From positions 1-64,000 of IMG/VR virus record IMGVR_UViG_3300031774_000005: a stretch of DNA of 64,000 nt; one strand, given 5' to 3'. Position numbers and translations under genes: made by a program. Positions 10,585-59,792 of the stretch are shown here, one piece after another; positions within the stretch are counted from its first letter, which is position 1, and each line of letters opens with the position of its first letter. This DNA comes from a virus. The notes beneath the pieces were generated by a model. It was not told where the DNA came from. It saw only the letters and a program-made list of their open reading frames with translations, and did no database searches.

Positions 10585-13509
10585 ATGAAACTCGGCTCTA
10601 TTGAGAAGGATAAACAACCTTCTCAAGAAATATTAAGACTCTTTGAAAAAACAAGAGTTGCTTATTTATCAGCAGTTCACGACCCCGATGAATACGGAGG
10701 CCGTTGGAGAAAAGCGGTTGATTTAATCATAGAATCATATGAAGAATTAGATGCCGCAGGTAAAGAGTTAAGGAATTTTATTGATGAAGATGAAATAGAA
10801 GATAAAGAAGTTAAAAACCCAATATCAAGAGAAGCGAAAGACTTGTTTGAGAAAATAAAACTCATTAGATACTCTTCTAAAATAGTTGCTGACCCTTTTG
10901 CTGAAATGTTCAAAGGTAGTGTCCTTGAAGAATTGTTAGATAATCCCGAAACTATGGTGAAATTCATTCATTATGCACTAAGAGACGACAATAAAGCACT
11001 ATCTCCGGACATTTTAGCCATTAAAGGTATGCAACCCGACACAATAACGGAGGGTCTTGTTGGACTTGACCTTGAATCGGATGATATTGCCCTCTATATT
11101 ATAGAGCATTACGGTGATGGAAAAGACTCAAAGAAGGTTGAATCGAAAGTAAAGGCAGGAATGGAACTATTAGAACTTATTTTCTTTTCTCAACATGAAG
11201 AGAAAGAATGGACAGACTTAAAAGAAATAGAAGGATTAGAGAAATCACAAAAAGAATTAACAGAAAAGTCCATTTCTCAATTTATTGTTCCTAATAAACC
11301 AATGTATAGGATATTTGGGATAGACGACATTAATGAATTAAAAGGCTTTAGTGGTAATTGGTATGTCCAAGAGAAATATGACGGTATGAGAATACAGTTG
11401 CATAAAATAGATGGCTCGGTTAAAATTTATTCTTACAATGAAAAAGACATTACTGCTAAGTGCAAAGAACAGGTTGAAGAACTTAAGAAAAAAGAATACG
11501 GAGATTGTATTTTAGATGGAGAGTTAATTCTTTTTGATGGTGATGATGCACTACATAGAGCAGATACTATTGCTCATGTTTTCAAAGGCAAATACAAAGA
11601 CGCTAAATTAAAGTGTCATGTGTTTGATATTATTCGACATGAATCCCAAACATTAACAGATGAAGATTTAGAAGATAGAATGACTATTTTATTCAATAAT
11701 TATTCAGCAAAGTCTAATCAAGCAATTGCTTATCCTTCTAAAAAAGATACAAGACAGGCTGATAGTCTAAAAGATGTTGAAAAGTATGCGAAAGAAATGA
11801 TGGATATTCCCACTTCCGAAGGAGTTGTTATTAAAGATGCAACTTCAACATATTATATTGGAACTAAAAAGAACCCTAAATGGATTAAATGGAAGAAGTT
11901 TGTTGATTTAGATGTAATTGTTTTAGATAAGAAAAAGACGAAAAGCAATCTTTATTCATATACTGTGGGCGTTGGGCCAATTCCGGAAGATATGGAAGGA
12001 CAAGAAATTGATGGTAAAAAGTATCTTAGTGTTGGTAAAGCATTGAATACTAAAGTAGCCGTTAATGTTGGAGATATTGTTAGAGTCAAAGTTGATGAAG
12101 TTAAGAAAAAAGGAGATGGGTTTAGTTTATTTTCAGCAAAGGTAATTGAAATACCGGAAGTCGAACACCCCGATAAATTAGTCACTCTTGAACTTCTATC
12201 ACAAGATACCAAAAAATCACTTAACTATAATGTAGAAGCATTAACAAAGGGAATCAAAATAACTGATTATATACATGGTGAAACAAATGTAATCATGAAA
12301 TCGGATATGAATGGCTTTGTAATCTATGGTTTTGAAGAAGATAATCTAATGTCTAAGAATGCTTTGGCAGATTTGGATATGTGGAAAGCCCAAGCAGAAG
12401 AAATAATGAAAACTAAAGCAAGTCAATTAACGGTTGCTATTTTTCAGTATCTAAAAACAATGGGAGACAAGACAGTAAATGATGTTCATGACTTTTTGAA
12501 GGACAAACACAAAGATATTTATGAAGATGTATTAGAATCTAAAAAGACTAAATTGAAAGATTGGTCGGATAATAGAGACGGTATTTCATTCAAAGATAAG
12601 AAACTTCATGCTGATGATGATAAAATTATGCAAGAAGAAGAAATTATGAAATCACTTTTAATTAAAAATCAAAGACAAGAATTAATCCAAAGAATAAAAC
12701 AGGAACAGGAACAGGAACAAGGACAAGGACAAATCGCTATTGAAGCAGATATGTCGGGTGATTGTTGCACTCAATTAAAACATAAAATTATTGAAAATAG
12801 AAAACGCCAACTTGAATATTTAATGGGAAATAAATCTTGGGAAGAACTGAAAAATAACCCCCAATACAATTTATCATCTTTTGATAATTATAATTCTTTA
12901 GAAGAAACGATGGATTGGTATTCTAATTTTATAATGAATCGGGATTGTGAATGGTTAGCGACGGAATTTATTAGTGAAAAGAATAAAGAAGAGTGGAAGA
13001 GTGTAGAAGAATATAATGAATGTTTATATGGTGAAGGATTTTCCGATAAATACGCTATGTTAAAAGAATACAAAACCCCAAAAGAAAATAGAAAGGGTTT
13101 GTTTAAAATATATTCAAGAGAAGATGATAATATAACATTAGGTATTAAACTTGAAGATGAAAGTTTATTTTGGACTATTGACTTAGATAACCAAGAAGAA
13201 ATGTTTGATTTGTTTGGTGCGGCAGGAAAATATCCGGCAGAAGTGGCTAAAAATGTCGAAAGAGGAAAGGTAGTTGATGCAGGAGATATTGAGTTAGGTG
13301 TCCAAAAAGAAGGTTATCATGAATACTTCTTGAAAGGTAATAAATTTGAAACTAAGATGCATTTTAGAGTAATCAAGGTTGAAGGAAAAGAAATGTGGCT
13401 TGCATGGACAGGATATAAACAAGAACCTGCTGATACAGAAGGCGATAAAGGTTTATGGAATATATATGAAGATAAATACAGTAAATTGTCAATTCCGGCT
13501 AAAAATTAG
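10585..13509 (+). CDS. Giant ATP-dependent DNA ligase in the head module, with possible degenerate phosphoesterase-like C-terminus
   Basis: 974 residues, far longer than usual ATP ligases (about 300-600). Helical N-terminus about 1-250. Adenylation domain: motif I EKYDGMR with nucleophile K264, motif III LDGELILFDG, CHVFDII, motif IV SEGVVIKD, motif V WIKWKKF. An OB-like domain follows (VGDIVRVKVDEVKKKGDGF). After a helical region and a Gln/Glu repeat, the last 110 residues (GIKLEDESLFWTIDL ... YFLKGNKFETKMHFRVI ... MWLAWTGYKQEPAD) resemble the LigD 3'-phosphoesterase fold, but the usual catalytic histidines are absent. A complete second ligase lies at 58257-59792. Location suggests a virion-linked ligase, perhaps acting on incoming genome ends. 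Confidence 0.8.
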   Translation: MKLGSIEKDKQPSQEILRLFEKTRVAYLSAVHDPDEYGGRWRKAVDLIIESYEELDAAGKELRNFIDEDEIEDKEVKNPISREAKDLFEKIKLIRYSSKIVADPFAEMFKGSVLEELLDNPETMVKFIHYALRDDNKALSPDILAIKGMQPDTITEGLVGLDLESDDIALYIIEHYGDGKDSKKVESKVKAGMELLELIFFSQHEEKEWTDLKEIEGLEKSQKELTEKSISQFIVPNKPMYRIFGIDDINELKGFSGNWYVQEKYDGMRIQLHKIDGSVKIYSYNEKDITAKCKEQVEELKKKEYGDCILDGELILFDGDDALHRADTIAHVFKGKYKDAKLKCHVFDIIRHESQTLTDEDLEDRMTILFNNYSAKSNQAIAYPSKKDTRQADSLKDVEKYAKEMMDIPTSEGVVIKDATSTYYIGTKKNPKWIKWKKFVDLDVIVLDKKKTKSNLYSYTVGVGPIPEDMEGQEIDGKKYLSVGKALNTKVAVNVGDIVRVKVDEVKKKGDGFSLFSAKVIEIPEVEHPDKLVTLELLSQDTKKSLNYNVEALTKGIKITDYIHGETNVIMKSDMNGFVIYGFEEDNLMSKNALADLDMWKAQAEEIMKTKASQLTVAIFQYLKTMGDKTVNDVHDFLKDKHKDIYEDVLESKKTKLKDWSDNRDGISFKDKKLHADDDKIMQEEEIMKSLLIKNQRQELIQRIKQEQEQEQGQGQIAIEADMSGDCCTQLKHKIIENRKRQLEYLMGNKSWEELKNNPQYNLSSFDNYNSLEETMDWYSNFIMNRDCEWLATEFISEKNKEEWKSVEEYNECLYGEGFSDKYAMLKEYKTPKENRKGLFKIYSREDDNITLGIKLEDESLFWTIDLDNQEEMFDLFGAAGKYPAEVAKNVERGKVVDAGDIELGVQKEGYHEYFLKGNKFETKMHFRVIKVEGKEMWLAWTGYKQEPADTEGDKGLWNIYEDKYSKLSIPAKN
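12699..12732 (+). repeat. Hexanucleotide repeat coding Gln-Glu / Gln-Gly
   Basis: Tandem ACAGGA-type hexamers inside the large ligase gene, drifting to ACAAGG. They code a QEQEQEQGQGQ linker between helical and C-terminal domains. Probably grown by slippage; length may vary between relatives. Confidence 0.7.
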
Positions 13510-14749: not shown

Positions 14750-16102
14750 ATGACAGGATATATTAATACAATAGCAGACTTAGAAGCACAAACCTATGGA
14801 ACAGGCGCAACAGGCCATATTAGCAATCAATTGCTTAAGGCCGCAGGAACAGTAGCAGGTATTCATACTGCACACGATGGCTCGTTAAGCGCACCATCGG
14901 GCATTAACGCAAATCTTTACAACAAGATTTACGGCCAAAAAGTATGGTCTATGCTAAACCGAGAATGTAATGCACTATCGGTTATTTCAAAAAGACCTTA
15001 TTCATCAAGTGGTTGGAGAATTTTAAAGAAAAGACCTGCCGGTGGAGCAGGAAACCAATTAGATGTTTCTGCCGCTTCAAATACCGCATTAAGTGATGGA
15101 TTATATGGTGCTGATGCACTTAGAGCAGACCGTCTTGGTGGTGTTCCGGAAAATGCAAGTCTTGATTCAAATACAGATGGTTTGATTTCAATTGCACCGG
15201 AATATGATACACTATTTACAAGCCCTAAGATTATTGCACATCAATTCTCTTTCAGTGAATTGGCTATGGAAATGGCTTCTATTGATGATGGAATTGGCGA
15301 TATTAGAGCGCAACTAAGAGAAGATATGGGCAAGCATCACGCAGAAGTCCAAAACCAAATGCTTGTTATGCCTTTGGAAAACTATTCTCCAACAACTGCT
15401 TATGCTACCGCAAATGCCATTGATAGAGGATATACTTCTCTATTGAAGATTGTTTCTAACTCGGCTGAAATTACCGAATTAGCGGATAACTCCGGTGGAA
15501 ACCTTGTAGATGGTGCAACAGACCAAGCAATTGATACACTTTATGGAAAACTACGAAGTGCAGCAGGAAATGAATATCTTGATTCCGAAGTTTCTTTCGG
15601 TGATGGCTACCTTTCAGCAGAAGCACGACAATTAACTCTAACTGTTCTAAACGATATGATTAGAAGACTAAGAGTTGCCGGTGGTTCTCCAAAGGTTATT
15701 CTAACAGGATATGATACTCTACAAACTATCTCGGACTTGCTACAAGCCCAAGAAAGATTCATGGATAGAAAGGAAATTGTTCCAACTGTTAATGGAGTAA
15801 GAGGCGTAAAGGGTCAAGAAGTCGGATTTAGAGTTTCAACTTACTACGACATACCAATGATTCCGGTTGCTGCTATGACTTCAACAGGAACAAACTCTTC
15901 TTTGATTAGTGATATGCTTTTCCTTGATACAGACCATTTGTGGCTATCTGTTATGAAACCAACTCAATACTTTGAAGATGGTATTTCAAACGGAAACCCA
16001 TTCGGTGTCGGTTCTCTTGGAAACAAGGCTCTTTACCGAACAATGGGAGAAATGGGCTGTTCATACTTTAAGGGTCAAGGCAAAATTACAAACCTTCTGT
16101 GA
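14750..16102 (+). CDS. Major capsid protein (HK97-fold expected)
   Basis: 450 residues directly behind the protease-scaffold, the canonical place. Its composition (many Ala, Gly, Ser; a central region ISIAPEYDTLFTSPKII and an end with KPTQYFEDG) fits a head shell protein, though HK97 folds cannot be proven by eye. The first 30 residues end in NQLLK followed by AAG, resembling the ILK-Ala motif, so an N-terminal delta-like peptide may be removed during maturation. GAAGGTGATTTATT precedes the ATG. Confidence 0.8.
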   Translation: MTGYINTIADLEAQTYGTGATGHISNQLLKAAGTVAGIHTAHDGSLSAPSGINANLYNKIYGQKVWSMLNRECNALSVISKRPYSSSGWRILKKRPAGGAGNQLDVSAASNTALSDGLYGADALRADRLGGVPENASLDSNTDGLISIAPEYDTLFTSPKIIAHQFSFSELAMEMASIDDGIGDIRAQLREDMGKHHAEVQNQMLVMPLENYSPTTAYATANAIDRGYTSLLKIVSNSAEITELADNSGGNLVDGATDQAIDTLYGKLRSAAGNEYLDSEVSFGDGYLSAEARQLTLTVLNDMIRRLRVAGGSPKVILTGYDTLQTISDLLQAQERFMDRKEIVPTVNGVRGVKGQEVGFRVSTYYDIPMIPVAAMTSTGTNSSLISDMLFLDTDHLWLSVMKPTQYFEDGISNGNPFGVGSLGNKALYRTMGEMGCSYFKGQGKITNLL

Positions 16103-16837: not shown

Positions 16838-17116
16838 ATGGCAAGTTGCAGAAGTAGCGGAGTATTGACCGGAAGCGCAGTAGTTTATTCCGGAAAGTGT
16901 AAATTGATTTCTATTCATGCTTGTGAGGTTGCAGGTTCAGCCGCAACTGTAAAAGTGTGGGATAATGCAAGTGCAGCAAGCGGTAAAGAATTAGCAAGGA
17001 TTGTTTTATCCGCTAATCAAACAATTGAATTTGATATGCATGGAGTAATCTGTTCAAATGGATTATTCTTTGAAGAAGATGCAGGTTCAGTTGCAGTTTC
17101 TATTGAATTTGCTTGA
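16838..17116 (+). CDS. Small beta-sandwich-like virion protein
   Basis: 92 residues of alternating strands with short polar turns (GSAVVYSGKCKLISIHACEV, TVKVWDNASAASGKELARIV, SVAVSIEFA). Four or more cysteines but no CxxC. The pattern is typical of small phage decoration or head-fibre proteins. GAAGGAGATAGAGAT precedes ATG. The 57 bases before it hold only a weak GGG-AAAG-CCC stem and no clear promoter. Confidence 0.6.
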   Translation: MASCRSSGVLTGSAVVYSGKCKLISIHACEVAGSAATVKVWDNASAASGKELARIVLSANQTIEFDMHGVICSNGLFFEEDAGSVAVSIEFA

Positions 17117-17125
17117 GGTTTTATT

Positions 17126-17509
17126 ATGCCAGCGTTAAGCCAAGATACCCGTTTAGTTATGACTATACTTTTTGTTGGAGCATTAAGTGGAACAAATGTT
17201 TGGGCGTATGCTCAATTCGGAACAGGATTTCCTTATGGAGCATTAGCACATTCGGTTTTATTTGGATTAGGAACAATAGGTGCAATCATGGTTATGAAGG
17301 CCGTTTTTGATTTAGTCTTAAATGACAAGATAGAAATGTGGCTTCTTGATAGAAAGATAGCGGCCTTTTGGGAAAGAAAAGCAAGAGACGAGCAACAAAG
17401 AAACAAGATGCGTGAAAGCGCAAGACAATACAATACTAATCTTTATCAAGGTATTCAAGAAGAAGAAGAGAATACTGTTGGTAATGAGTTCTTAGCCGCA
17501 TTACAATAG
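17126..17509 (+). CDS. Membrane protein with two transmembrane segments
   Basis: 127 residues. Hydrophobic segments at about 9-30 (LVMTILFVGALSGTNVWAYA) and 40-65 (LAHSVLFGLGTIGAIMVMKAVF) are followed by a charged C-terminal tail (about 70-127), probably cytoplasmic. It is the first of a set of three: this gene, the single-span protein at 17521 and the GTPase at 17741, spaced by 1-11 bases. A virion membrane, entry or lysis role is possible but unproven. Confidence 0.7.
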   Translation: MPALSQDTRLVMTILFVGALSGTNVWAYAQFGTGFPYGALAHSVLFGLGTIGAIMVMKAVFDLVLNDKIEMWLLDRKIAAFWERKARDEQQRNKMRESARQYNTNLYQGIQEEEENTVGNEFLAALQ

Positions 17510-17520
17510 GCGGTGAAAGA

Positions 17521-17739
17521 ATGGTCTTTGGAGATTTAATGGGGTTCTCGGACTCCGATTATGCTTATAATCAAACAAGAGCGCATTCTGCCGATATTTT
17601 CTTTTTGAAAATGAGAGCATGGTTTTGGGGTTCTTGTGTAGGGCTATCCGCTTTTCTAATTGGAAACATAATGGGCGTATTTGATATTAATGTAATGGGT
17701 TGGATTATAGAAAAAGTATCGGGTTTATGGGGTCATTGA
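17521..17739 (+). CDS. Small membrane protein with one or two transmembrane segments
   Basis: 72 residues with a central hydrophobic segment (MRAWFWGSCVGLSAFLIGNI) and a second weakly hydrophobic end (VMGWIIEKVSGLWG). The N-terminus is polar and aromatic (SDSDYAYNQ). It lies directly upstream of the GTPase with one base between stop and start. Possible membrane anchor for the GTPase; holin-like function cannot be excluded. Confidence 0.65.
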   Translation: MVFGDLMGFSDSDYAYNQTRAHSADIFFLKMRAWFWGSCVGLSAFLIGNIMGVFDINVMGWIIEKVSGLWGH

Positions 17740-17740
17740 T

Positions 17741-18409
17741 ATGTCATTAATGACAGGCTTTGCTATATTAGTTGGTGAAGCAGTTATTGGTTTTTGGAAG
17801 AAAGTCCACGCTATTAATTTTGGAGTGTATGGAGCAACAATGGTTGGTAAAACAACACTAAGTCACCAATTAAGAACAAGGGGAGAAGTTCCTCAAATTA
17901 ATGAAAGAACAGTAGGACTACATAGAGCATCGAGAAAAAATGTAAAAATTGATGGTGATTCACATACAATAAAAAGTGCTGACATAGGAGGGGAAGCGAT
18001 TTATTGGAAAGAATGGGTCAAAGATATGCAAAAGCGTAGAGTAAAATATATTATTTTTATGATAGACCATAGGCATTTAGATAATGAAGCAAATTTAGAC
18101 CATCAAGTAGCATGGAAGTTTTTAGTTGATACCATTGTGTCGGATTTATGGCCAACAAATAGGAAAAAAAGAGAATCGGATTATCCTATGGCTATCGGAA
18201 TATGGGCTAACAAATATGACATATGGGGAGAAAAATATCCATTAGAAGAAGGCCAAACCATAGACAAACATAAAATATTTGAACCTTTTAAGTATGGAAT
18301 GAGGCAGTTGAACGACAAGGGAATACCTTGTTTCAAATATATAGTATCGGCAAAATCAGACCCCGAAATGGTATATAGAGGCGTAATGACGATGATAAAG
18401 GATTATTGA
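17741..18409 (+). CDS. Small GTPase of Arf/Ras type
   Basis: 222 residues with all five GTPase motifs in order: G1 GATMVGKT (31-38), G2 threonine in RTVGL (T57), G3 DIGGE (81-85), G4 NKYD in WANKYD (157-160), G5 SAK (203-205). The D-x-G-G form of G3 and the TVGL switch are Arf-like; Arf has Gln where this has Glu85, so hydrolysis may differ. The first 25 residues are hydrophobic or amphipathic and could contact membrane. Two membrane protein genes precede it and an ADP-ribosyltransferase-like gene follows. Complete small GTPases are unexpected in a virus head-tail region. A MglA- or Arf-like switch acting on host membrane or on virion assembly is possible. Confidence 0.85.
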   Translation: MSLMTGFAILVGEAVIGFWKKVHAINFGVYGATMVGKTTLSHQLRTRGEVPQINERTVGLHRASRKNVKIDGDSHTIKSADIGGEAIYWKEWVKDMQKRRVKYIIFMIDHRHLDNEANLDHQVAWKFLVDTIVSDLWPTNRKKRESDYPMAIGIWANKYDIWGEKYPLEEGQTIDKHKIFEPFKYGMRQLNDKGIPCFKYIVSAKSDPEMVYRGVMTMIKDY

Positions 18410-18414
18410 TTATT

Positions 18415-18975
18415 ATGTGGTTTAATATCTTAAAAAGACAAACTAAATTATACAATTATGACCCAGATTTTTTAAATCCTTATGGCGAAGTGTCTCACTT
18501 TCATGGAAGCAGGGCATCAAAAGAAAAATTATTAGAAGAAGGATTAAAACCTCAAGGAAAATATATTAGTCATCCTAAAGGATATACAAAAGAACATTAT
18601 AGAGATTTAGTTAAACCCGATAATAAAAATAAAAAATCATTGATATGGGCGGCAGGAAAAGAACAAGGACTTCCCTTAGAATACGGAGAATCTAAAGAAA
18701 ATGTCAAAGAAACAAAAGTTGATTATAATTCTTTATTTGATGAAAGGGGAATGCTATTACCAAATCCTAAAATTCTTGAATCTAACAAAACTATAAGGAC
18801 AGAAGGAAATATAGTAGGCATTAGAGGAAAGGATATTGATTGGAACAGAAGCGAGTCACCTATTTACAAAATAGGAACAAAATGGTATATCCATAATAAA
18901 CCAATTGACCCAGATAGATTAGTATTTCTAACAATAGAACAATGGAAAAAATATTTAAACAAGAAAGGCGATTAA
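18415..18975 (+). CDS. ADP-ribosyltransferase/Tpt1-like protein with N-terminal FNILK tag
   Basis: 186 residues from ATG 18415 (TTG 18406 overlaps the previous stop). It begins MWFNILKR, the tag shared with head proteins. Residues 28-45 read HFHGSRASKEKLLEEGLKP, matching the first motif of the ART/RNA 2'-phosphotransferase superfamily (H-G-S/T, helix, then G-L-x-P). Near the end KWYIHNKPIDPDRLVFL fits the final strand with I-x-P-x-x-L seen in many members. No certain catalytic Glu can be assigned. If it is packaged and injected, it would parallel T4 Alt, a tagged and processed ART. Fold call is by pattern only. Confidence 0.5.
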   Translation: MWFNILKRQTKLYNYDPDFLNPYGEVSHFHGSRASKEKLLEEGLKPQGKYISHPKGYTKEHYRDLVKPDNKNKKSLIWAAGKEQGLPLEYGESKENVKETKVDYNSLFDERGMLLPNPKILESNKTIRTEGNIVGIRGKDIDWNRSESPIYKIGTKWYIHNKPIDPDRLVFLTIEQWKKYLNKKGD

Positions 18976-18976
18976 A

Positions 18977-19639
18977 ATGTATAACAACCAATTAATAGGA
19001 CAAACCGCACCGCAACAATTTAACCCTGCACTAAATCCCTTACAACAAGCAAGGGCAAGTGGGGTTGTTCAAGAATATAAGTTTATAACTTTTAAACCAA
19101 AGAAGCAACAAAAGGAACTTATTAATGTTTTAAAAGCAGAACCTAAAAAATTTATAGGAATTAAATATGGTAAAAAATTTAATTTAAAAGATAGGTGCGT
19201 TGTTTGCGGGTATCATCATATTTGGGAACAAGGAGATTATATGCGACCACCTATTCCTTTAGATGGAGTAATTAAAGGAAGACCACTAAGAGGAACATAT
19301 TGCCCTAAACACGCATCACATTATATGCAGTTAGAAATGCTACAACAACAGATACTTGCAGATAAACACGGATTAGATTTTAAAGCGTTTAAACCTAAGA
19401 TGCCAAAGATACTAAAAAGTGGCCCAATCAAAAGTTTAACAAGAGAAGATGTTTTGTCATTAACTAACGCAGGTTGGTTTATAACCCCGCCCGCTTTAGC
19501 AGATAACAAGACGGCTACTGATGAAGTAATACGATTAATCACAGAAATAAATATAATGACAGACAGAATGAATCATTTGATGTTAAAATACGAAATTAAG
19601 GCAACTAACGAAGAACCAATAGAAAATAAGGAGGACTAA
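18977..19639 (+). CDS. Zinc-finger-containing structural-module protein
   Basis: 220 residues. A metal site is likely from CVVCGYHH (about 75-82) with YCPKHASHY (about 112-120). The N-terminus is Gln/Pro rich, and a helical C-terminus (about 180-215) follows. It also contains PKILKSG and NVLKAEP, weaker relatives of the ILK motif. Coupled closely to the ART-like gene. Function unknown; perhaps a head or neck component. Confidence 0.6.
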   Translation: MYNNQLIGQTAPQQFNPALNPLQQARASGVVQEYKFITFKPKKQQKELINVLKAEPKKFIGIKYGKKFNLKDRCVVCGYHHIWEQGDYMRPPIPLDGVIKGRPLRGTYCPKHASHYMQLEMLQQQILADKHGLDFKAFKPKMPKILKSGPIKSLTREDVLSLTNAGWFITPPALADNKTATDEVIRLITEINIMTDRMNHLMLKYEIKATNEEPIENKED

Positions 19640-19641
19640 TT

Positions 19642-20295
19642 ATGGGAATATTAGGAACAAGTAATGGAACAGTGATGAACGCAGTTCAAGCAACAAGCGA
19701 CCAACAATTTAAGAATGTAAATAATTTACTTTCTTTACAAGATAATCATGTTGAGGAATTTTTTCAATATCATGGTGAACAATTTTTATCGGCTCTTGAA
19801 AAACTAATGGAAGATGTAGTTCAACGAGTTGTTTCTCAAATGCTTAGTAAATTAGCATTTACATCTAACGGTGCTTCTATAACAATTAATGCTGATGCTA
19901 TGAGAGAATTTGAAAAAATTACTCAAGAGAATATTGATTTGGATATTCAAAAGTTGCTAAATTCAGCAATTAATACAGAAGTAGTTAATCAAAGAAAATT
20001 AGCCAAACAACAATATTTAGAATCTCAAGGATTTAGTGGCGGTGGACAAATGCAACAACCAAGCGCAGGTATGGCAGTAGCGGGATTAACAGGTAATACT
20101 CAACAATATCAACAAATGCAAGGTGCTATGAATAATGGAACAGGCTATCCTATTCCTCCTAATGGAACAGACGGATATGGTAGGCCATATTGGATTGATG
20201 CTCAAGGACAAATGAGTTATGAACCCCCACAAAGCGGTTTAGGATTAGGTTCAGCAATACAAAAAGGTGCGGCTTGGGCTAAATGGCTAATGTGA
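19642..20295 (+). CDS. Helical protein with Gln/Gly-rich tail
   Basis: 217 residues. The N-terminal 130 are helical (HVEEFFQYHGEQFLSALEKL, VVQRVVSQMLSKL); residues 130-200 are rich in Gln, Gly, Pro and Asn (QYQQMQGAMNNGTGYPIPP), followed by a short helix. GGAGGACTAATT precedes ATG. Likely a minor structural protein; family not recognised. Confidence 0.55.
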   Translation: MGILGTSNGTVMNAVQATSDQQFKNVNNLLSLQDNHVEEFFQYHGEQFLSALEKLMEDVVQRVVSQMLSKLAFTSNGASITINADAMREFEKITQENIDLDIQKLLNSAINTEVVNQRKLAKQQYLESQGFSGGGQMQQPSAGMAVAGLTGNTQQYQQMQGAMNNGTGYPIPPNGTDGYGRPYWIDAQGQMSYEPPQSGLGLGSAIQKGAAWAKWLM

Positions 20296-24066: not shown

Positions 24067-25671
24067 ATGGTAAATAACGAAATTTTTTTAGGAAGCGGCT
24101 CAAGCACAACACTCATACCCGAACAGGATATTTATATTCCTCTTGACGGAACGGGTGGTGGAGTATCAACAGTCACAGTCACACCGGATAATGCTTTTGA
24201 TGCGGTTTTTAAATTTGTTCCTAATATTTACATTGGTTGTAATATTGATATTTATACTGCCGCTAATGCTCTAATTTCAAGCCATACTGTTGCTTCAAAT
24301 GCAGTAGATACCATTACTCTCTCAAGTAATGTTGGTTCGGGAACTCCTGCTTATGCACTATTAAGAGCATATGGTTCTCCTTCACCACACCCCGAAGTTG
24401 GCGGCAGACAATGTTTATTGGCTGATAATTACTTAGGATTGATGGAATCAGTCACATTTCCTAATTTAAGCCAAGAATTGAAACAAATGAATCTTGGTCT
24501 TGGTGGAACAAGAAACTTTACTTTCCAATACAAAGGAATTAGAACTGCTGATAATGGCTCTCTTGCTTTAGTCGCAAATACAGGTGCTTGGCTTTATTAC
24601 GCTTTTGGGGCTATGGATGCTATTACTTTTACCAGAAAAACACATCTAACAGTCACTTATCCTGCCGATACTGCGCCTCCAACCGGAACTGCTGATGCCA
24701 TTTATATTGAAGGAACAAATGTTGGAAATGACGGAACTGCAATAGTCACGGAAACAGGCCCACACTTTTATAGAACAGTAAAAGGCGGAACAACTCTTGT
24801 TCCTCCTGTTGATTTTACAGTTTTTCCTACATCAAATGCAAATAATCAAACCGTAGATTTTGATACAGATGGAAGGCCGAAAAACATTACTTATACAATT
24901 AAAGAACTTAATAGCGACCAATTGCCTTCATTTAGCCTTGAACAATCAATGGCTAAAGACCCTGCAAGTTTGACTACAAACGCAAATATTGGTGCAAGTC
25001 CAAACCCTCTTGATGAATCTAATAACTTTGTTAGAATCGCAAGAGGTTGCCGTGTTAATTCATTAACTATTGAAGCATCCGAAGGTGAAGAATTAAAAAT
25101 GAATATGGATATTAATGCAAGAGTAGTTGATAGTATTAGTGATTTATATGCTTCTGCCTCTTTACAAACAGATTATGTTTCAAGAGCAGGTCAAACAGAT
25201 AATGCTAATTTGTTTAACTTTAATGCAGGAACAAACCATGCTTCACCATTCTTTTTCTCTCAAGGAACATTTAGCGCATTTGGCCAACAATTTTTGAAAG
25301 TTAATTCAGTAAGTATTGCTATCAATAACAACTTGATGGATAAAAGATACATGGGCGGTCATAGAGATATGAAAGAGGGTATTCCTGCACAACGCTCATA
25401 TGAAATTACTTTTGAAGCAGTTGTGACTGACGATTTACTATTCAAAGAAATGCTTAATGAAACAGAAAACACAAGTGCAAATCGTGTGAGTTTTACTTTC
25501 ACAAAGCCCGATACAAGCGAAAGTATAAATTTAGTATTCAAAGATTATTTCCTTGACACAACAGAAATTACTATTCCTGACGATAAAGGGCCAATTAGTT
25601 TTAGCGCAACAATTAAGCCAAGAAATCTACATTCTTGTTCGATTATAACTGATTATGTCCTCATGGGGTGA
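24067..25671 (+). CDS. Tail tube protein
   Basis: 534 residues. The second half fits the tail tube family: LPSFSLEQSMAK, IARGCRVNSLTIEASEGEEL, MNMDINARVV, then VSIAINNNLMDK and QRSYEITFEAVVTDD. The N-terminal part has Ig-like strands (VSTVTVTPDNAFDAVFKFV). It would polymerise into the tail tube; no sheath gene is present, so a siphovirus-like tail is expected. Two small chaperone-like frames and the tape measure follow, the standard order. Confidence 0.8.
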   Translation: MVNNEIFLGSGSSTTLIPEQDIYIPLDGTGGGVSTVTVTPDNAFDAVFKFVPNIYIGCNIDIYTAANALISSHTVASNAVDTITLSSNVGSGTPAYALLRAYGSPSPHPEVGGRQCLLADNYLGLMESVTFPNLSQELKQMNLGLGGTRNFTFQYKGIRTADNGSLALVANTGAWLYYAFGAMDAITFTRKTHLTVTYPADTAPPTGTADAIYIEGTNVGNDGTAIVTETGPHFYRTVKGGTTLVPPVDFTVFPTSNANNQTVDFDTDGRPKNITYTIKELNSDQLPSFSLEQSMAKDPASLTTNANIGASPNPLDESNNFVRIARGCRVNSLTIEASEGEELKMNMDINARVVDSISDLYASASLQTDYVSRAGQTDNANLFNFNAGTNHASPFFFSQGTFSAFGQQFLKVNSVSIAINNNLMDKRYMGGHRDMKEGIPAQRSYEITFEAVVTDDLLFKEMLNETENTSANRVSFTFTKPDTSESINLVFKDYFLDTTEITIPDDKGPISFSATIKPRNLHSCSIITDYVLMG

Positions 25672-47254: not shown

Positions 47255-47467
47255 TCACCTGTCTATTTGTAATTGTTTAATTTCTTGAAATGACGCTCTT
47301 AATTCAGCGCACATATGGTCGTATAAAAAAACTAAATACTCTTCAAAAGTATAATCTCTAAACTGTTCATAATCGTCTTTTTCGGATTTATAATCTAAAT
47401 ATAAACCGTCTCTTACCTCTTCTAATCTTTCTCTTTCTAATAATATTTCATCTTCTCTCAAAACCAT
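47255..47467 (-). CDS. Small acidic helical protein
   Basis: 70 residues if started at ATG 47467 (MVLREDEILLERERLEEVRD); a start at 47518 adds 17 residues but overlaps PolB-C more. Acidic helices and YTFEEYLVFLYDHM. Overlaps the end of PolB-C by 10 bases. No family. Confidence 0.5.
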   Translation of the reverse strand: MVLREDEILLERERLEEVRDGLYLDYKSEKDDYEQFRDYTFEEYLVFLYDHMCAELRASFQEIKQLQIDR

Positions 47468-48348
47468 TCCTCCAAACTTCTTTGTATTGTTCCCGTTCTT
47501 ATTGATGTTAAATCCCATGCCATCGCACTAAAAATAGGCTCGGCCTTCTTTACTACTTGTTCGGCATAGTGCTTGAGGTCGGGATTACAACCCTCAAACT
47601 CCTTCGCAGTTGTGCATGATACATACTCAACTACTTTTCTTTCCTTTGTTAAAGGGTGAATATAATACTCACTATTGTTTAATACTTTCATAAAGATATA
47701 TGAATCATCAAATTCAGTATCTTTACTCCAAGCATAAATAACTCCTGCGATACCCGAACCTATTGTCGGTTTTTTACCTTCAAGAGTTGTGAATTTCTTT
47801 GTATGTGTAGCGCATTTACTACATACAGAATGCTCTAATTCTAAACATTCTTTTAGATGATATTTAGCATTACAATCCGGACATTTAACCATGAGCCTAT
47901 TAGTTCTTAATCTACTTCTTTTAATAAGAGGCGTTAGTCCTAACTTTCCATCTAAAACATCGGCATACTTAGAGTAAAGAAATTGCACTATTTCTGCTTG
48001 TGACTTTTGATTTACCCACATTTTCAATACATCTGTTTGAACTTCTTTAGCCAACTTAGTTTCACTAACTCTTTTGGCAGTAAATCCGGTCATGCTGAAT
48101 TTAGGCTCATCAAGCCATTCTCCATCTTCCCAAGACACCAAACCCGCATTTCTATTTCTAACAGTTCCGACACCTAATGCTGAAAAATACTTTTCAAACT
48201 CTAATACTACGGGGTGTTCATCTAATCCCATTACATTTGGAAAGTGTTCTCTTACGCTTTCTTCTATCTCCTTGATAGCCGTCTGCGCTTTTTCAACAGA
48301 ATCTATTTGAACATAAATAGAATCAGTATGTCCATAAACTACTTTCAT
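47458..48348 (-). CDS. Family B DNA polymerase, C-terminal fragment (motif C, thumb)
   Basis: 296 residues starting MKVVYGHTDS, so motif C is at residues 5-10. YGDTDS is usual; here the first Asp is His while the second, the essential metal ligand in family B, is kept. FTAKRV, then a thumb with an inserted zinc site (KCPDCNAKYHLKEC and CSKC) follow. The last eight residues QRSLEEWF fit a PCNA-interacting box. It must join the N-terminal fragment at 49608-51263 to form the active site. Six small genes separate the two. Confidence 0.9.
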   Translation of the reverse strand: MKVVYGHTDSIYVQIDSVEKAQTAIKEIEESVREHFPNVMGLDEHPVVLEFEKYFSALGVGTVRNRNAGLVSWEDGEWLDEPKFSMTGFTAKRVSETKLAKEVQTDVLKMWVNQKSQAEIVQFLYSKYADVLDGKLGLTPLIKRSRLRTNRLMVKCPDCNAKYHLKECLELEHSVCSKCATHTKKFTTLEGKKPTIGSGIAGVIYAWSKDTEFDDSYIFMKVLNNSEYYIHPLTKERKVVEYVSCTTAKEFEGCNPDLKHYAEQVVKKAEPIFSAMAWDLTSIRTGTIQRSLEEWF

Positions 48349-49177: not shown

Positions 49178-49611
49178 ACTTCTAACTCCTTATTTTTATT
49201 TTGTGCGTATTTTAGTGCTTGGATTTGAGAACTAAAAAACTTAAACAAACCATTTTGCCGAGTTCTTTTACCGCACTTTTCACAAGGCGATGATTGAAAA
49301 ATACCATTTTTTAATTTATGTTCACCATGCTTAGTGGACATAATATTATATTGACCGCAACCTTCTTTTGGTGTTCTACCAGCAGGTTTTAACTTATTAT
49401 CTTCTAATTGAACAGGGCATTTCCAAACCACCCAATTTCTTGAATGAATAGGAGATTGTTTTATTTCTTTCTCTAAAATATGGGAATGCCCTTCTCTAAC
49501 TTCTTTATATTTTAAAAGAACGAGGGCTTCTTTTTCTGTAAAACTTAATGCTTCACTCATGGGTAATAAGTCCTTAATTAAAATATAAGTCCTTAAAGTT
49601 ATACCACTCAT
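49174..49611 (-). CDS. Zinc-binding protein with HTH-like N-terminus
   Basis: 145 residues. Residues 20-50 (LSFTEKEALVLLKYKEVREG) are helical and may be a helix-turn-helix. Two cysteine sets: WKCPVQ with GCGQYN, and SSPCEKCGKRTRQNG. The end is a helix (SSQIQALKYAQNKNKELEV). Coupled to PolB-N by four bases. Unknown; a replication or transcription accessory. Confidence 0.55.
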   Translation of the reverse strand: MSGITLRTYILIKDLLPMSEALSFTEKEALVLLKYKEVREGHSHILEKEIKQSPIHSRNWVVWKCPVQLEDNKLKPAGRTPKEGCGQYNIMSTKHGEHKLKNGIFQSSPCEKCGKRTRQNGLFKFFSSQIQALKYAQNKNKELEV

Positions 49612-51263
49612 ATTTCCATCTCCTTCGCCTTAAATGCGGCTAATCTAATAGCCTCTCTTGCACTTGCCGTTATAGAAGCCGCTAAATTAACATTAGCCCA
49701 ACCAAATCCTTGAAAGGCAATAATTCCGTAAAATGAAGCCATTAAACGCTTTACTGCCATTTGATTATTATGCCATTTTTGATACTCGCCACTATCATTA
49801 GAGGCTTTCATTCTTTTCTTATAGTCATTTCTTAACTCTTTTAATTCTAATACTGCTCTTGGTAATAGTCCTAATTCATCTGTTTTAAAATACAACATAT
49901 GTTTCTTTTCAACGGGGCTAAAATCTCTTGGTGTTAGAATATTAACTGCAAATTCTGTTGGTTCTTCACTAATGGTTTCCCAAGATATATTTCTTGCTAT
50001 CATCATTGAAGGATATAGACCTGCAAAATCAAAAGCCGCAACATTAAGATGTAATCCTTGAGTTTGTTCACTTAAAGGGTCATATATCATAGCCCCTTCA
50101 TAAGTTTCTCTTTTCTCTACTTTACTTCCTGTCTTGCATTTCCACCAAGCATTTCTCATAAAGTAAATAGAACCCATGTGAGAAGCGTAGAAACAAGCAT
50201 CAAATGGTGCTTTTAGTAATCTTTGTAGTGATAATATTGCTTCACTACAATAGTTTGATTCATCTATCTCGACTATCAACTTTACATCTTGTATAGCATA
50301 GTCAAGATAAGTTTGAGTATCTTCTAACCAAGCCCTGCGATAAAATTCATTTGTATCGGGAAACTTCTCCGAGACAAGTTTCTTCTTGTTTAGAACTGTT
50401 TCACCAATATAATCAAGAGACAAAGAAGGTAATGTTCCTCTTTGTGAATCATTCCATTGTCTTTCAAATGCTAAATCTAAAGATAAAGTAATTCTTCCAT
50501 TAATAGGTTGTTCAATAGGGCTAAAACCCTTTTCACCATATGCAAAGGAAAAACTATCTTTCTTTTTCTTTATACCTTTAATGTGTCCTGTTGGCGACAT
50601 TATTTGTGGATTAAGACCAAGAGCGCAGGTTCTTTCTAATAACTTAGGTATATCTGCAAAATGACCGAACCATGCAATTAACATATCGGGGTCTTTTACA
50701 ACCATTGTTGTCATAAAGTTTTCAAGCATGTCTTTTTCATTAGTGAATATTTTAGCATTCCCAAGAGGATAAGTGTGCATAATTTTACGCATTGCCTTTT
50801 CAGGAAACCATACCCATTGATGATACTTCTCTTCATAATTATCATACACTACAATAGTAGTAATACAATCGTGATATTCTCCGCCTTGTTGCCATTCCAT
50901 ATCCCAATACCATTTACGCATTTTATACTCCGGCATTTCTTTTACTTCATCAACTGCATATCTAAAGTGAAAAGGCACATCAGCCTCATAGGTTTTCTTG
51001 AACATATCTTTAGCCTTTCTAATATCAAAAGAAGTATCAACTACAACTTTCTTTAACGGCTCATTATCAATATTAACCCAATCACCACGAATATACTCAA
51101 AGTCTCTATCAATATACTTTGATGCCTTATACTTGGAAGGTTCTTTCTCATCTTCTTTAACATAAAAATAAGGTTTAACTTCCACCATTTCAAACTTCTT
51201 TTCACCGTTCTCTCTCCAAGATTTATAGATTCTTTTACCATCATTCATCTTACTTATTATCAT
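49608..51263 (-). CDS. polB: Family B DNA polymerase, N-terminal fragment (exonuclease + motifs A and B)
   Basis: 551 residues. Exonuclease: Exo I WDMEW (D121, E123), Exo II region DPDMLIAWFGHFADIP, where the usual Asn is missing but an Asp remains, Exo III YAIQD (322-326). Palm: motif A FDFAGLYPSMMI (411-422), motif B KRLMASFYG (505-513, Ala where Asn is common). It ends about 38 residues beyond motif B and lacks motif C, which is in the fragment at 47458. Split archaeal PolB proteins are known (Methanothermobacter), so a two-chain enzyme is plausible. Clamp gene is upstream. Confidence 0.9.
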   Translation of the reverse strand: MIISKMNDGKRIYKSWRENGEKKFEMVEVKPYFYVKEDEKEPSKYKASKYIDRDFEYIRGDWVNIDNEPLKKVVVDTSFDIRKAKDMFKKTYEADVPFHFRYAVDEVKEMPEYKMRKWYWDMEWQQGGEYHDCITTIVVYDNYEEKYHQWVWFPEKAMRKIMHTYPLGNAKIFTNEKDMLENFMTTMVVKDPDMLIAWFGHFADIPKLLERTCALGLNPQIMSPTGHIKGIKKKKDSFSFAYGEKGFSPIEQPINGRITLSLDLAFERQWNDSQRGTLPSLSLDYIGETVLNKKKLVSEKFPDTNEFYRRAWLEDTQTYLDYAIQDVKLIVEIDESNYCSEAILSLQRLLKAPFDACFYASHMGSIYFMRNAWWKCKTGSKVEKRETYEGAMIYDPLSEQTQGLHLNVAAFDFAGLYPSMMIARNISWETISEEPTEFAVNILTPRDFSPVEKKHMLYFKTDELGLLPRAVLELKELRNDYKKRMKASNDSGEYQKWHNNQMAVKRLMASFYGIIAFQGFGWANVNLAASITASAREAIRLAAFKAKEMEI

Positions 51264-57870: not shown

Positions 57871-58260
57871 TCATTCCTCTTCCATTGGTTCTAACGCCTG
57901 TTGTAATACTGCTTTAATTAAGCCAATATCATCATTTCCATTCTCTATAAAATTAAGAGCAGTTAGTATGATGTGCTTATGTCTTTGGTCGTCAAGAGCG
58001 TATTTATCATTCTCAAGCATACCTAAAGTTTGAGCAATCTTCTTTTTGGCATCTTTTCTTTGATAGTTTGTTTCGCCTTGTTGATGTAAAAGAATAAATC
58101 TTCTTTGATATAAACCAAGAAGATGAACATATTGAGTTCTTATTCTTCTCATGATATTCCTAATTTCACGATTAGTTTGGTTCATTGATAAATCACTTAT
58201 CTTTATACTTCTACCAAATATATCTGTCATGTATTTAGTATTCCATGATGCACCTTTCAT
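57871..58260 (-). CDS. Unidentified helical protein
   Basis: 129 residues, basic and helical (NREIRNIMRRIRTQYVHLLG; KKKIAQTLGMLENDKYAL), ending PMEEE. No motif. Coupled on both sides to ligase and histone-fold genes. Confidence 0.55.
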   Translation of the reverse strand: MKGASWNTKYMTDIFGRSIKISDLSMNQTNREIRNIMRRIRTQYVHLLGLYQRRFILLHQQGETNYQRKDAKKKIAQTLGMLENDKYALDDQRHKHIILTALNFIENGNDDIGLIKAVLQQALEPMEEE

Positions 58261-59792
58261 TCTAATCTCTCCACATCTTCTAAGGTATTAATATCCGCAA
58301 CAAACTTATCATCTCTAATTCTAACACATCTTGGGAATCTTAAGCCTAAGTTGTCCTTTTCATCTCTTGAAACTAAATCAGCCTTAACTTCTAAAACTAC
58401 AACAGGTGAAACAAAGAACTGCCCATTCTCAAATTTCTCAACATTTCTTCTTAGCGTATTTGTTAGTGTGATTAAATCCTCATCGGAAAAACCACTACCA
58501 CACCAACCAACGCTTTGATAACCATTGTCGGACTTTACTCCTAATTCAAATGTGCCGAATACATTTGCTCTTTTACCTTCTCCATACTTAGTAGATAATA
58601 TAACTACATCAAGATTAATTTGTGGTGGTTTGTATTTAGCCCAACCAACACTTCTTTTCCCTGCTTCATAAGCCATTGAAGAATCTTTGACGATAATACC
58701 TTCAAAACCATCATTAATTGCTTGATGATAAAAAGCCATAATATCGCCTTCTGTTATTCGGTGCGCTTGATTCGGTAAATCTTTCATCTTCTCAAGCCTT
58801 TCATTGTATGGTAAATCCATAATAGTTTCATCGTTTAGCATAAGACAATCAAAGATAACCCATTCAACCTTTACCTTTTCTGCCGCTTCTAAATGATTCT
58901 TAGAATGAACTCTTGTAGCCATTAGTTTATGTGGTGCAGGTGTTCCATCATCTTTTATTGGATATATTTCACCATCAAGTATTGCGTTCTTAATATCATA
59001 CTTTGCACATAATAAAACAATATCGGGGAATTGAACTGTTACCAATTTACCCTTACGATTAAAAATCATTACCTTGCCATCTTCAATATGAATTTGATAC
59101 CTATTACCATCATACTTGTAATCAACAACAAAGTTAGTTGGCCACTTATTCATAGGCACTTCTTTTGCTAACATAGGTGCTACAAACTTTCCGTGTGTTA
59201 AATTACATGGAGGTTCTATTCCTCTTTCATAGGCAGAACAAACTACTTCAATAGAATTAAAGTTCAAGTGTTTCTTAACCTCTTTAACTTTCTTCTTGTA
59301 GTAATGAGCCATAATTTTCGTGACTGTTCCTCTATTGATACCGTTTCTTGGTGTTCTTAGAAGATACCTAATGAACCATCTTCGGCCATTAGCAGACATA
59401 CCGACTAAAGCCGTTTCTACATTTGTAAAAACATCGGAATCAATTTTACCACAATTAAATTCCAATATTAGTTTAGCACTTAGTAAAGGCATACCGTCTT
59501 TTATTTCTGTTTCTGCTGAAACATCAAGATAATATATCGCATCTCCTAAATCATTATGAGCCGCTAACAGTCCATCTATTTCACTTTCAAATACATCAAA
59601 TATCTTCGCTAACCATTTCTTAGCCTTTGCTAAACCTAAGTTATTAGCAGTAAGGTTATCTTTATCTAAAATAGATAATACTAATCCTTTATTTTCAAAA
59701 TTCTCAAGAGCGTTTCCTATCATTTTTATCTGTTGCGTTGGTGTTAGAGTATCGCTCGCTTCTAATAACCTTGCCATTCGTTCCCATGTCAT
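58257..59792 (-). CDS. ATP-dependent DNA ligase (replicative type)
   Basis: 511 residues, normal archaeal size. N-terminal helical domain to about 200; motif I DYKYDGNR with K226, motif III ILDGEI, IIIa WVIFDCL, motif IV FEGIIVKD, motif V GWAKYKP, motif VI LRFPRCVRIRDDK. Seals nicks in lagging-strand synthesis. A second, unusual ligase lies in the head module (10585). The N-terminal 89 bases overlap the next gene upstream in another frame. Confidence 0.95.
   Translation of the reverse strand: MTWERMARLLEASDTLTPTQQIKMIGNALENFENKGLVLSILDKDNLTANNLGLAKAKKWLAKIFDVFESEIDGLLAAHNDLGDAIYYLDVSAETEIKDGMPLLSAKLILEFNCGKIDSDVFTNVETALVGMSANGRRWFIRYLLRTPRNGINRGTVTKIMAHYYKKKVKEVKKHLNFNSIEVVCSAYERGIEPPCNLTHGKFVAPMLAKEVPMNKWPTNFVVDYKYDGNRYQIHIEDGKVMIFNRKGKLVTVQFPDIVLLCAKYDIKNAILDGEIYPIKDDGTPAPHKLMATRVHSKNHLEAAEKVKVEWVIFDCLMLNDETIMDLPYNERLEKMKDLPNQAHRITEGDIMAFYHQAINDGFEGIIVKDSSMAYEAGKRSVGWAKYKPPQINLDVVILSTKYGEGKRANVFGTFELGVKSDNGYQSVGWCGSGFSDEDLITLTNTLRRNVEKFENGQFFVSPVVVLEVKADLVSRDEKDNLGLRFPRCVRIRDDKFVADINTLEDVERLE

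Follow-up and report, generated by a model that had tools for sequence, protein, structure and literature searches.

An Arf-like GTPase encoded with two small membrane proteins in a conserved gene block of magroviruses

Genes and Features of the Locus

The window, by which we mean the whole stretch of DNA that was analysed, is 64 kb long and comes from an IMG/VR record of 75.5 kb. On its virion strand lie the genes of two small membrane proteins (M1 and M2) and of a small GTPase (G), followed by a variable inserted gene (D) and two further conserved genes (E and F). The features are as follows:

17126-17509, + strand: M1, 127 aa, with two membrane segments, one at residues ~10-28 and one at ~43-61, and with a C-terminal region that is charged; always 5' of M2
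17521-17739, + strand: M2, 72 aa, with one membrane segment (residues ~38-56)
17741-18409, + strand: G, a 222-aa Ras-superfamily GTPase, Arf-like in structure, identified by motifs, profiles and fold
17747-17806, + strand: residues 3-22 of G, hydrophobic and forming an N-terminal helix in the AlphaFold2 model, with G6, F7 and E13 invariant in 175 homologues
17831-17854, + strand: G1 motif (P-loop) GATMVGKT; G31, G36, K37 and T38 in 175/175
17909-17911, + strand: switch I threonine T57 (in RTVG); R56, T57 and G59 in 175/175
17981-17995, + strand: G3 motif DIGGE, D81 to E85; residue 85 is Glu in 172/175 and Gln in 3/175
18209-18220, + strand: G4 motif NKYD, N157 to D160; N157, K158 and D160 in 175/175
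18347-18355, + strand: G5 motif SAK (S203, A204, K205); 175/175
18415-18975, + strand: D, 186 aa, carrying MWFNILK as its N-terminal tag; an inserted gene outside the conserved block, without relatives in the near, mid and far sets
18977-19639, + strand: E, a 220-aa zinc-finger-like protein (CxxC...CxxH) and fourth gene of the block, by its motif (179 of 182 distinct homologues) and linkage
19642-20295, + strand: F, 217 aa, fifth gene of the block, conserved like G in nearer relatives, by identity and linkage

The virion strand also encodes a terminase, a portal, a prohead protease, an HK97-type MCP, a tail tube and a tape-measure-like protein; the MCP resembles that of halovirus HCTV-1 at 25% identity. 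On the opposite strand are a two-gene B-family polymerase, an ERCC4 nuclease, a DNA ligase and GroEL. Magroviruses, which make up the order Magrovirales, are tailed and have marine group II archaea (Poseidoniales) as hosts, and their gene layout has been described (PMC10768690; PMC10160649). The record from which the window comes has an MCP near that of Druskaviridae, its own replisome with PolB and ligase, a chaperonin, and two opposed gene clusters. Because the window's gene content matches the published descriptions, the source virus is a magrovirus. The B-family DNA polymerase occupies two separate genes (47458-48348 and 49608-51263, both on the - strand), an arrangement that has been reported for Aoguangviridae (PMC10768690). 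There are also two ATP-dependent DNA ligase genes, at 10585-13509 (+) and 58257-59792 (-), and one of these ligases, of 974 aa, is encoded between the portal and protease genes, inside the virion cluster.

G Is a Ras-Superfamily GTPase

A reading of this DNA made from sequence only had named five GTPase motifs in G. All five were found where that reading had placed them, and their key residues did not vary among 175 distinct relatives with 59-100% identity to the window protein. D81, G83 and G84 are likewise invariant (175/175), and the neighbouring residue 85 is the position at which Ras and Arf carry the catalytic Gln.

As a single sequence, G gave weak GTPase matches in profile searches (MMR_HSR1, 0.0024; TIGR00231, 0.0015; also Roc, SRPRB, and Ras) and found nothing in the PDB. 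Since these matches were weak, homologues were gathered stepwise. Among 60 diverse members of the family, Pfam matches were obtained to MMR_HSR1 in 59 (best 1.2e-5), to SRPRB in 47 (4e-5), to Ras in 43, and to Arf in 12 (3.8e-5; counted at E up to 1), and a sequence-profile search of the PDB gave Rab33B as the best match (E 0.001). G is a genuine Ras-superfamily GTPase. The weak single-sequence scores are what might speak for a chance P-loop, a misread ORF, or a pseudogene; this possibility is ruled out by the invariance of the motifs in 175 homologues, a dN/dS of about 0.06, and the predicted fold, and we give it practically no weight.

Compared with the window protein, G had a median identity of 86% in the near set of relatives, 80% in the mid set, and 62% in the far set. 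The values for the MCP were 72, 66, and 59%, and those for F were 82, 80, and 53%, so that near the window G is more conserved than the MCP (86 vs. 72%). Median dN/dS was 0.059 for G, 0.094 for M1, and 0.128 for M2, all of them rough values because dS was high. As judged from these sequence comparisons, G is under strong constraint.

Structure of G and Family Placement

The AlphaFold2 model of G built on 60 diverse sequences shows a Ras-type fold with a preceding helix at residues 3-22 (pLDDT 77.7, pTM 0.77), although the P-loop and switch I are poorly modelled; an alignment restricted to 24 close sequences gave a pLDDT of 47. With this model, Foldseek returned 1469 matches from the PDB with E values of 0.001 or lower, Rab33 and Rab1 being on top, whereas VIA-align placed Arf6, Arf1, Arl1, and Arl3 first (Z from 15.6 to about 14). 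In the VIA-align ranking, GerdArfR1 and HodArfR1, both from Asgard archaea, scored 14.4 and 14.1, and the highest Rab reached 13.6; differences in Z under 1 are ties. Because of these ties and because the two aligners rank the matches differently, "Arf-like" is the reading that fits best but is not proven. MglA was absent from the VIA-align list of structural matches, an absence that excludes nothing. Against a library of modelled viral proteins, the best matches that carried a name came from giant viruses of eukaryotes.

Window G had no match to Pfam Arf (PF00025), and L403 was the sole relative above the Arf cut-off among the matches listed (23.7 vs. 22.3 bits). For SRPRB, the window protein scored 13.9 bits against a cut-off of 25, and the ten members listed reached at most 20-21. 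DxGG is invariant in G, but the catalytic Gln that completes the DxGGQ signature of the Arf family is not there, its place being taken by Glu (172/175). Since both the catalytic Gln and the Pfam cut-off failed for the window protein, G is not to be filed as a member of the Arf family, and Arf membership is not established. It is a separate claim that G appears to resemble Arf in anatomy, with its predicted N-terminal helix, its DxGG, and its putative membrane partners. The earlier attribution to an Arf/Ras type is supported by the invariant motifs and the Ras-type predicted fold, with Arf as the best structural match and no proven family; in profile searches, the matches to the Ras superfamily bear it out, but the Arf cut-off of Pfam was mostly missed.

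With Arf, Arl, and Asgard ArfR proteins, G shares the Ras fold, DxGG in G3, an extra helix before the first strand, and its top VIA-align scores (Arf6 and GerdArfR1). It differs from them in its Glu for the catalytic Gln, in the SAK of G5, in a longer stretch from switch I to G3, and in the scores of most of its members, which fall under the Pfam cut-off. It also differs in having what appear to be two dedicated membrane partners and in being encoded by a virus of non-Asgard archaea. Likeness to Ras and Rab lies in the SAK of G5, in Rab33B as the best PDB sequence-profile match, and in the top Foldseek rows. However, membrane attachment is predicted to be N-terminal in G and is C-terminal in Ras and Rab, G3 reads DxGG rather than DTAG, and the VIA-align score of Rab is lower than that of Arf (13.6 vs. 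15.6).

The Rab/Ras-like GTPases of giant viruses (Pithovirus, mimivirus) are also virus-encoded and have the fold in common with G (mimivirus Rab 5xc5, Z 13.6), but they belong to viruses of eukaryotes, and we know of no conserved late block with membrane proteins in their case. In the MglA-MglB polarity system of bacteria, the partner of MglA is the soluble MglB, whereas the putative partners of G are two membrane proteins; no Pfam match to a Roadblock (MglB-type) partner was found among the neighbours of G, a search that would miss a diverged or distant one. The beta subunit of the SRP receptor (SRPRB) is a GTPase with an N-terminal membrane segment, as is predicted for G, and weak Pfam matches to it occur in 47 of the 60 G members; however, the listed scores of G are below the cut-off, and no SRP-receptor alpha partner was seen.

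Membrane Features of M1, M2, and G

M1 and M2 had been read as two small membrane proteins placed before the GTPase, and their hydrophobic segments are indeed kept, with two peaks in all 161 distinct homologues of M1 and one peak in 164 of the 168 of M2. The intergenic gaps are 11 bases (M1-M2) and 1 base (M2-G), in agreement with the spacing of 1-11 bases that had been noticed in the window. The hydrophobic moment of the N-terminal helix of G averages 0.34 over 175 proteins; that of the window protein, 0.30, lies above the mean of shuffled sequences and below their 95th percentile (0.39).

A Five-Gene Block in the Late Array

The block lies between the MCP gene (14750-16102) and the tail tube gene (24067-25671), which confirms its placement between capsid and tail modules, and it is located 3' of gene C and 5' of gene I wherever both are visible. 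Gene C itself (16838-17116) has weak matches to head proteins. Gene E has no Pfam match despite its zinc-finger-like motif.

The sequence-only reading had proposed a unit of three genes. The linkage of M1, M2, and G stands, but the conserved unit is larger and comprises five genes, M1-M2-G-E-F. This order is constant in 320 loci that carry any of these genes (repeat contig copies counted), and the block is not broken up in relatives; 278 of the 320 loci carry all five genes, and every missing gene is explained by a contig end. The spacing of M1 and M2 is always tight, and other genes intervene between M2 and G in 19 of 183 distinct loci. Tight spacing was for this reason rejected as the defining feature of the block.

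The block occurs in GroEL-bearing magroviruses and in one thermosome-bearing virus, and is thus not confined to a single magrovirus group. In two other marine lineages, the MCP-A-C-I layout is similar, but one protein of 790-1027 aa replaces the block; G is absent throughout the searched records of these lineages, with the L403 record as a positive control. No relative of G was found in HCTV-1, vir519, or vir335, the block being wholly absent from haloviruses, nor in the phage collection or the plasmid collection. When mapped onto the MCP tree, G presence requires one change, which is compatible, at low support (52/81), with a single gain or loss of G. A scan of 84,980 species genomes, with a reach of close relatives, gave one contig (L085, NZMJ01000024.1) of 12.2 kb in a 'Maricaulis' MAG. 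As it carries the magrovirus genes MCP-A-C-M1-M2-G-E-F, this contig is most likely a misbinned magrovirus contig.

The protein of about 1000 aa at the block site of G-minus marine viruses was located at L176:12355-15288, L198:12362-15412, L191:12488-15568, and L221:12769-15768; hhalign found no homology between it and G, E, F, or H, and no similarity to the block was found. One record, IMGVR_UViG_3300021958_000021 (L037, L149, L153), has 184733 bases, twice the usual magrovirus length, and contains two different GTPase regions and two chaperonin genes; it is perhaps two virus genomes joined in assembly.

A Proposed Role at the Membrane

The computations establish a conserved GTPase of Ras-type fold within a five-gene unit that is present or absent as a whole. 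Because related viruses with complete sets of virion genes lack the entire block, it would be an added function and not a core part of the virion. Its place in the late array and its strong conservation, together with the fact that it is nonetheless dispensable in sister lineages, favour an added late membrane function. We propose that G is a working Arf/Ras-type switch that would hydrolyse GTP, made late, probably alongside the virion proteins. Its N-terminal helix, together with M1 and M2 as putative anchors or regulators, would hold it at the host cytoplasmic membrane; E and F may be its cytosolic partners, and the five proteins may physically associate. In Asgard archaea, ArfR proteins with an N-terminal amphipathic helix move to membranes when GTP-bound (reviewed in PMC12554972). 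We consider it likely that G is a membrane-tethered late GTP switch that acts with M1 and M2.

The GTP cycle might then time or drive a membrane step at virus exit, by remodelling or permeabilisation. This whole explanation, a membrane-tethered late switch with exit as its role, is our leading but tentative reading, with somewhat less than an even chance of being right. Several findings count against exit: the N-terminal helix of G is not significantly amphipathic by hydrophobic moment, profile searches including Pfam placed none of M1, M2, E, and F in a family known for exit or lysis, and the head-tail gene interval is an unusual location for lysis genes. The genes that intervene between M2 and G in 19 of 183 distinct loci also count against this explanation. 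A further proposition, doubtful in our opinion, is that some tailed archaeal viruses have a dedicated five-protein, GTP-driven membrane module built round an Arf-like switch and serving an undescribed mode of exit or membrane remodelling, which would be the first small-GTPase membrane system known from a prokaryote virus.

Exit is ranked above assembly, entry, and host manipulation, in that order, although sequence data cannot decide among them. Were G, E, and F, with M1 and M2 as anchors, to control head maturation or head-tail joining, GTP hydrolysis would provide timing or direction. The location of the block between the capsid genes and the head-tail region would fit such an assembly switch, as would the conservation of F, like that of G, in nearer relatives and the presence of another large protein at the block site in sister lineages. 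However, these sister lineages have the same gene layout without the block, and to our knowledge tailed virion assembly in known systems needs no GTPase or membrane proteins; we therefore find this role unlikely. Next in rank is a factor for entry, in which M1, M2, and perhaps G would travel with the particle and, as the DNA enters, work on the membrane of the next cell. The block is encoded inside the virion gene array and is conserved along with it, and small virion membrane proteins can aid DNA entry in other phages. Against this, we know of no precedent for a virion-delivered GTPase, and the high conservation of G across lineages is ill-suited to a host-specific factor, which leaves entry improbable.

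The block could also serve to alter membrane traffic, cell division, or polarity in the host, or to stop superinfection. It is accessory to virion making, in that sister lineages are without it, and in cells such tasks are performed by small GTPases of the MglA and Arf types (PMC11016934; PMC12554972). However, it sits with late structural genes and not with early genes, PADLOC recognised no defence family, and there was no defence or counter-defence match, so that host manipulation appears a poor candidate, ranked after entry. As for a narrow lysis cassette, a special case of the exit role in which M1 and M2 would be holin-like and G a timer, the sizes and segment counts of M1 (two segments) and M2 (one) occur among holins, and little is known about lysis genes in archaeal viruses (PMC12596118). 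M1 and M2 have no holin family match, though, and no recognised endolysin lies alongside. Nor do we know of a GTPase timer in lysis, and we hold this special case to be the least probable of these roles.

No GTPase is mentioned in the magrovirus literature that was searched (PMC10160649; PMC10768690; PMC12999244; PMC5332604; PMC5628999; PMC8651126), earlier annotation elsewhere being possible, and the literature searched gave no description of any phage or archaeal virus with a small GTPase. Arf-type switches with a membrane-binding N-terminal helix have been described as deriving from a family found exclusively in Asgard archaea and in the eukaryotes that descend from them (PMC12554972). If viruses of marine archaea outside the Asgard group have a conserved Arf-like protein that is fixed in the late array with two membrane proteins, this would show that GTP-controlled membrane work exists in prokaryote viruses too. 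The block suggests an undescribed GTP-driven step in the way that magroviruses handle the cell membrane. These viruses, which are among the most abundant in the ocean, have never been cultured, and the block is a testable entry point to how they leave or enter their hosts.

Tagged Insert Genes in the Late Array

An N-terminal tag, MWxx[IVL][LI]K, is common to genes inserted on either side of G and at other places in the late array. It was found in 101 distinct ORFs with a length of 60 aa or more, the bodies of which fall into 46 clusters without detectable mutual similarity; all 101 lie on the virion strand, and the tag is present in G-minus viruses as well. Examples are the following:

18415-18435, + strand, window: tag of gene D
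L002:9445-9996, L037:9056-9691, L076:9157-9450, and L053:5224-5514: tagged genes in other loci
L307 and L314: further loci with tagged genes

The codon use of the tag varies, which indicates that it is conserved as protein. It looks like a targeting signal (to capsid or membrane) or a packaging signal on shuffled cargo genes. Some of the tagged proteins are acetyltransferase-like or nucleotidyltransferase-like, as judged by eye.
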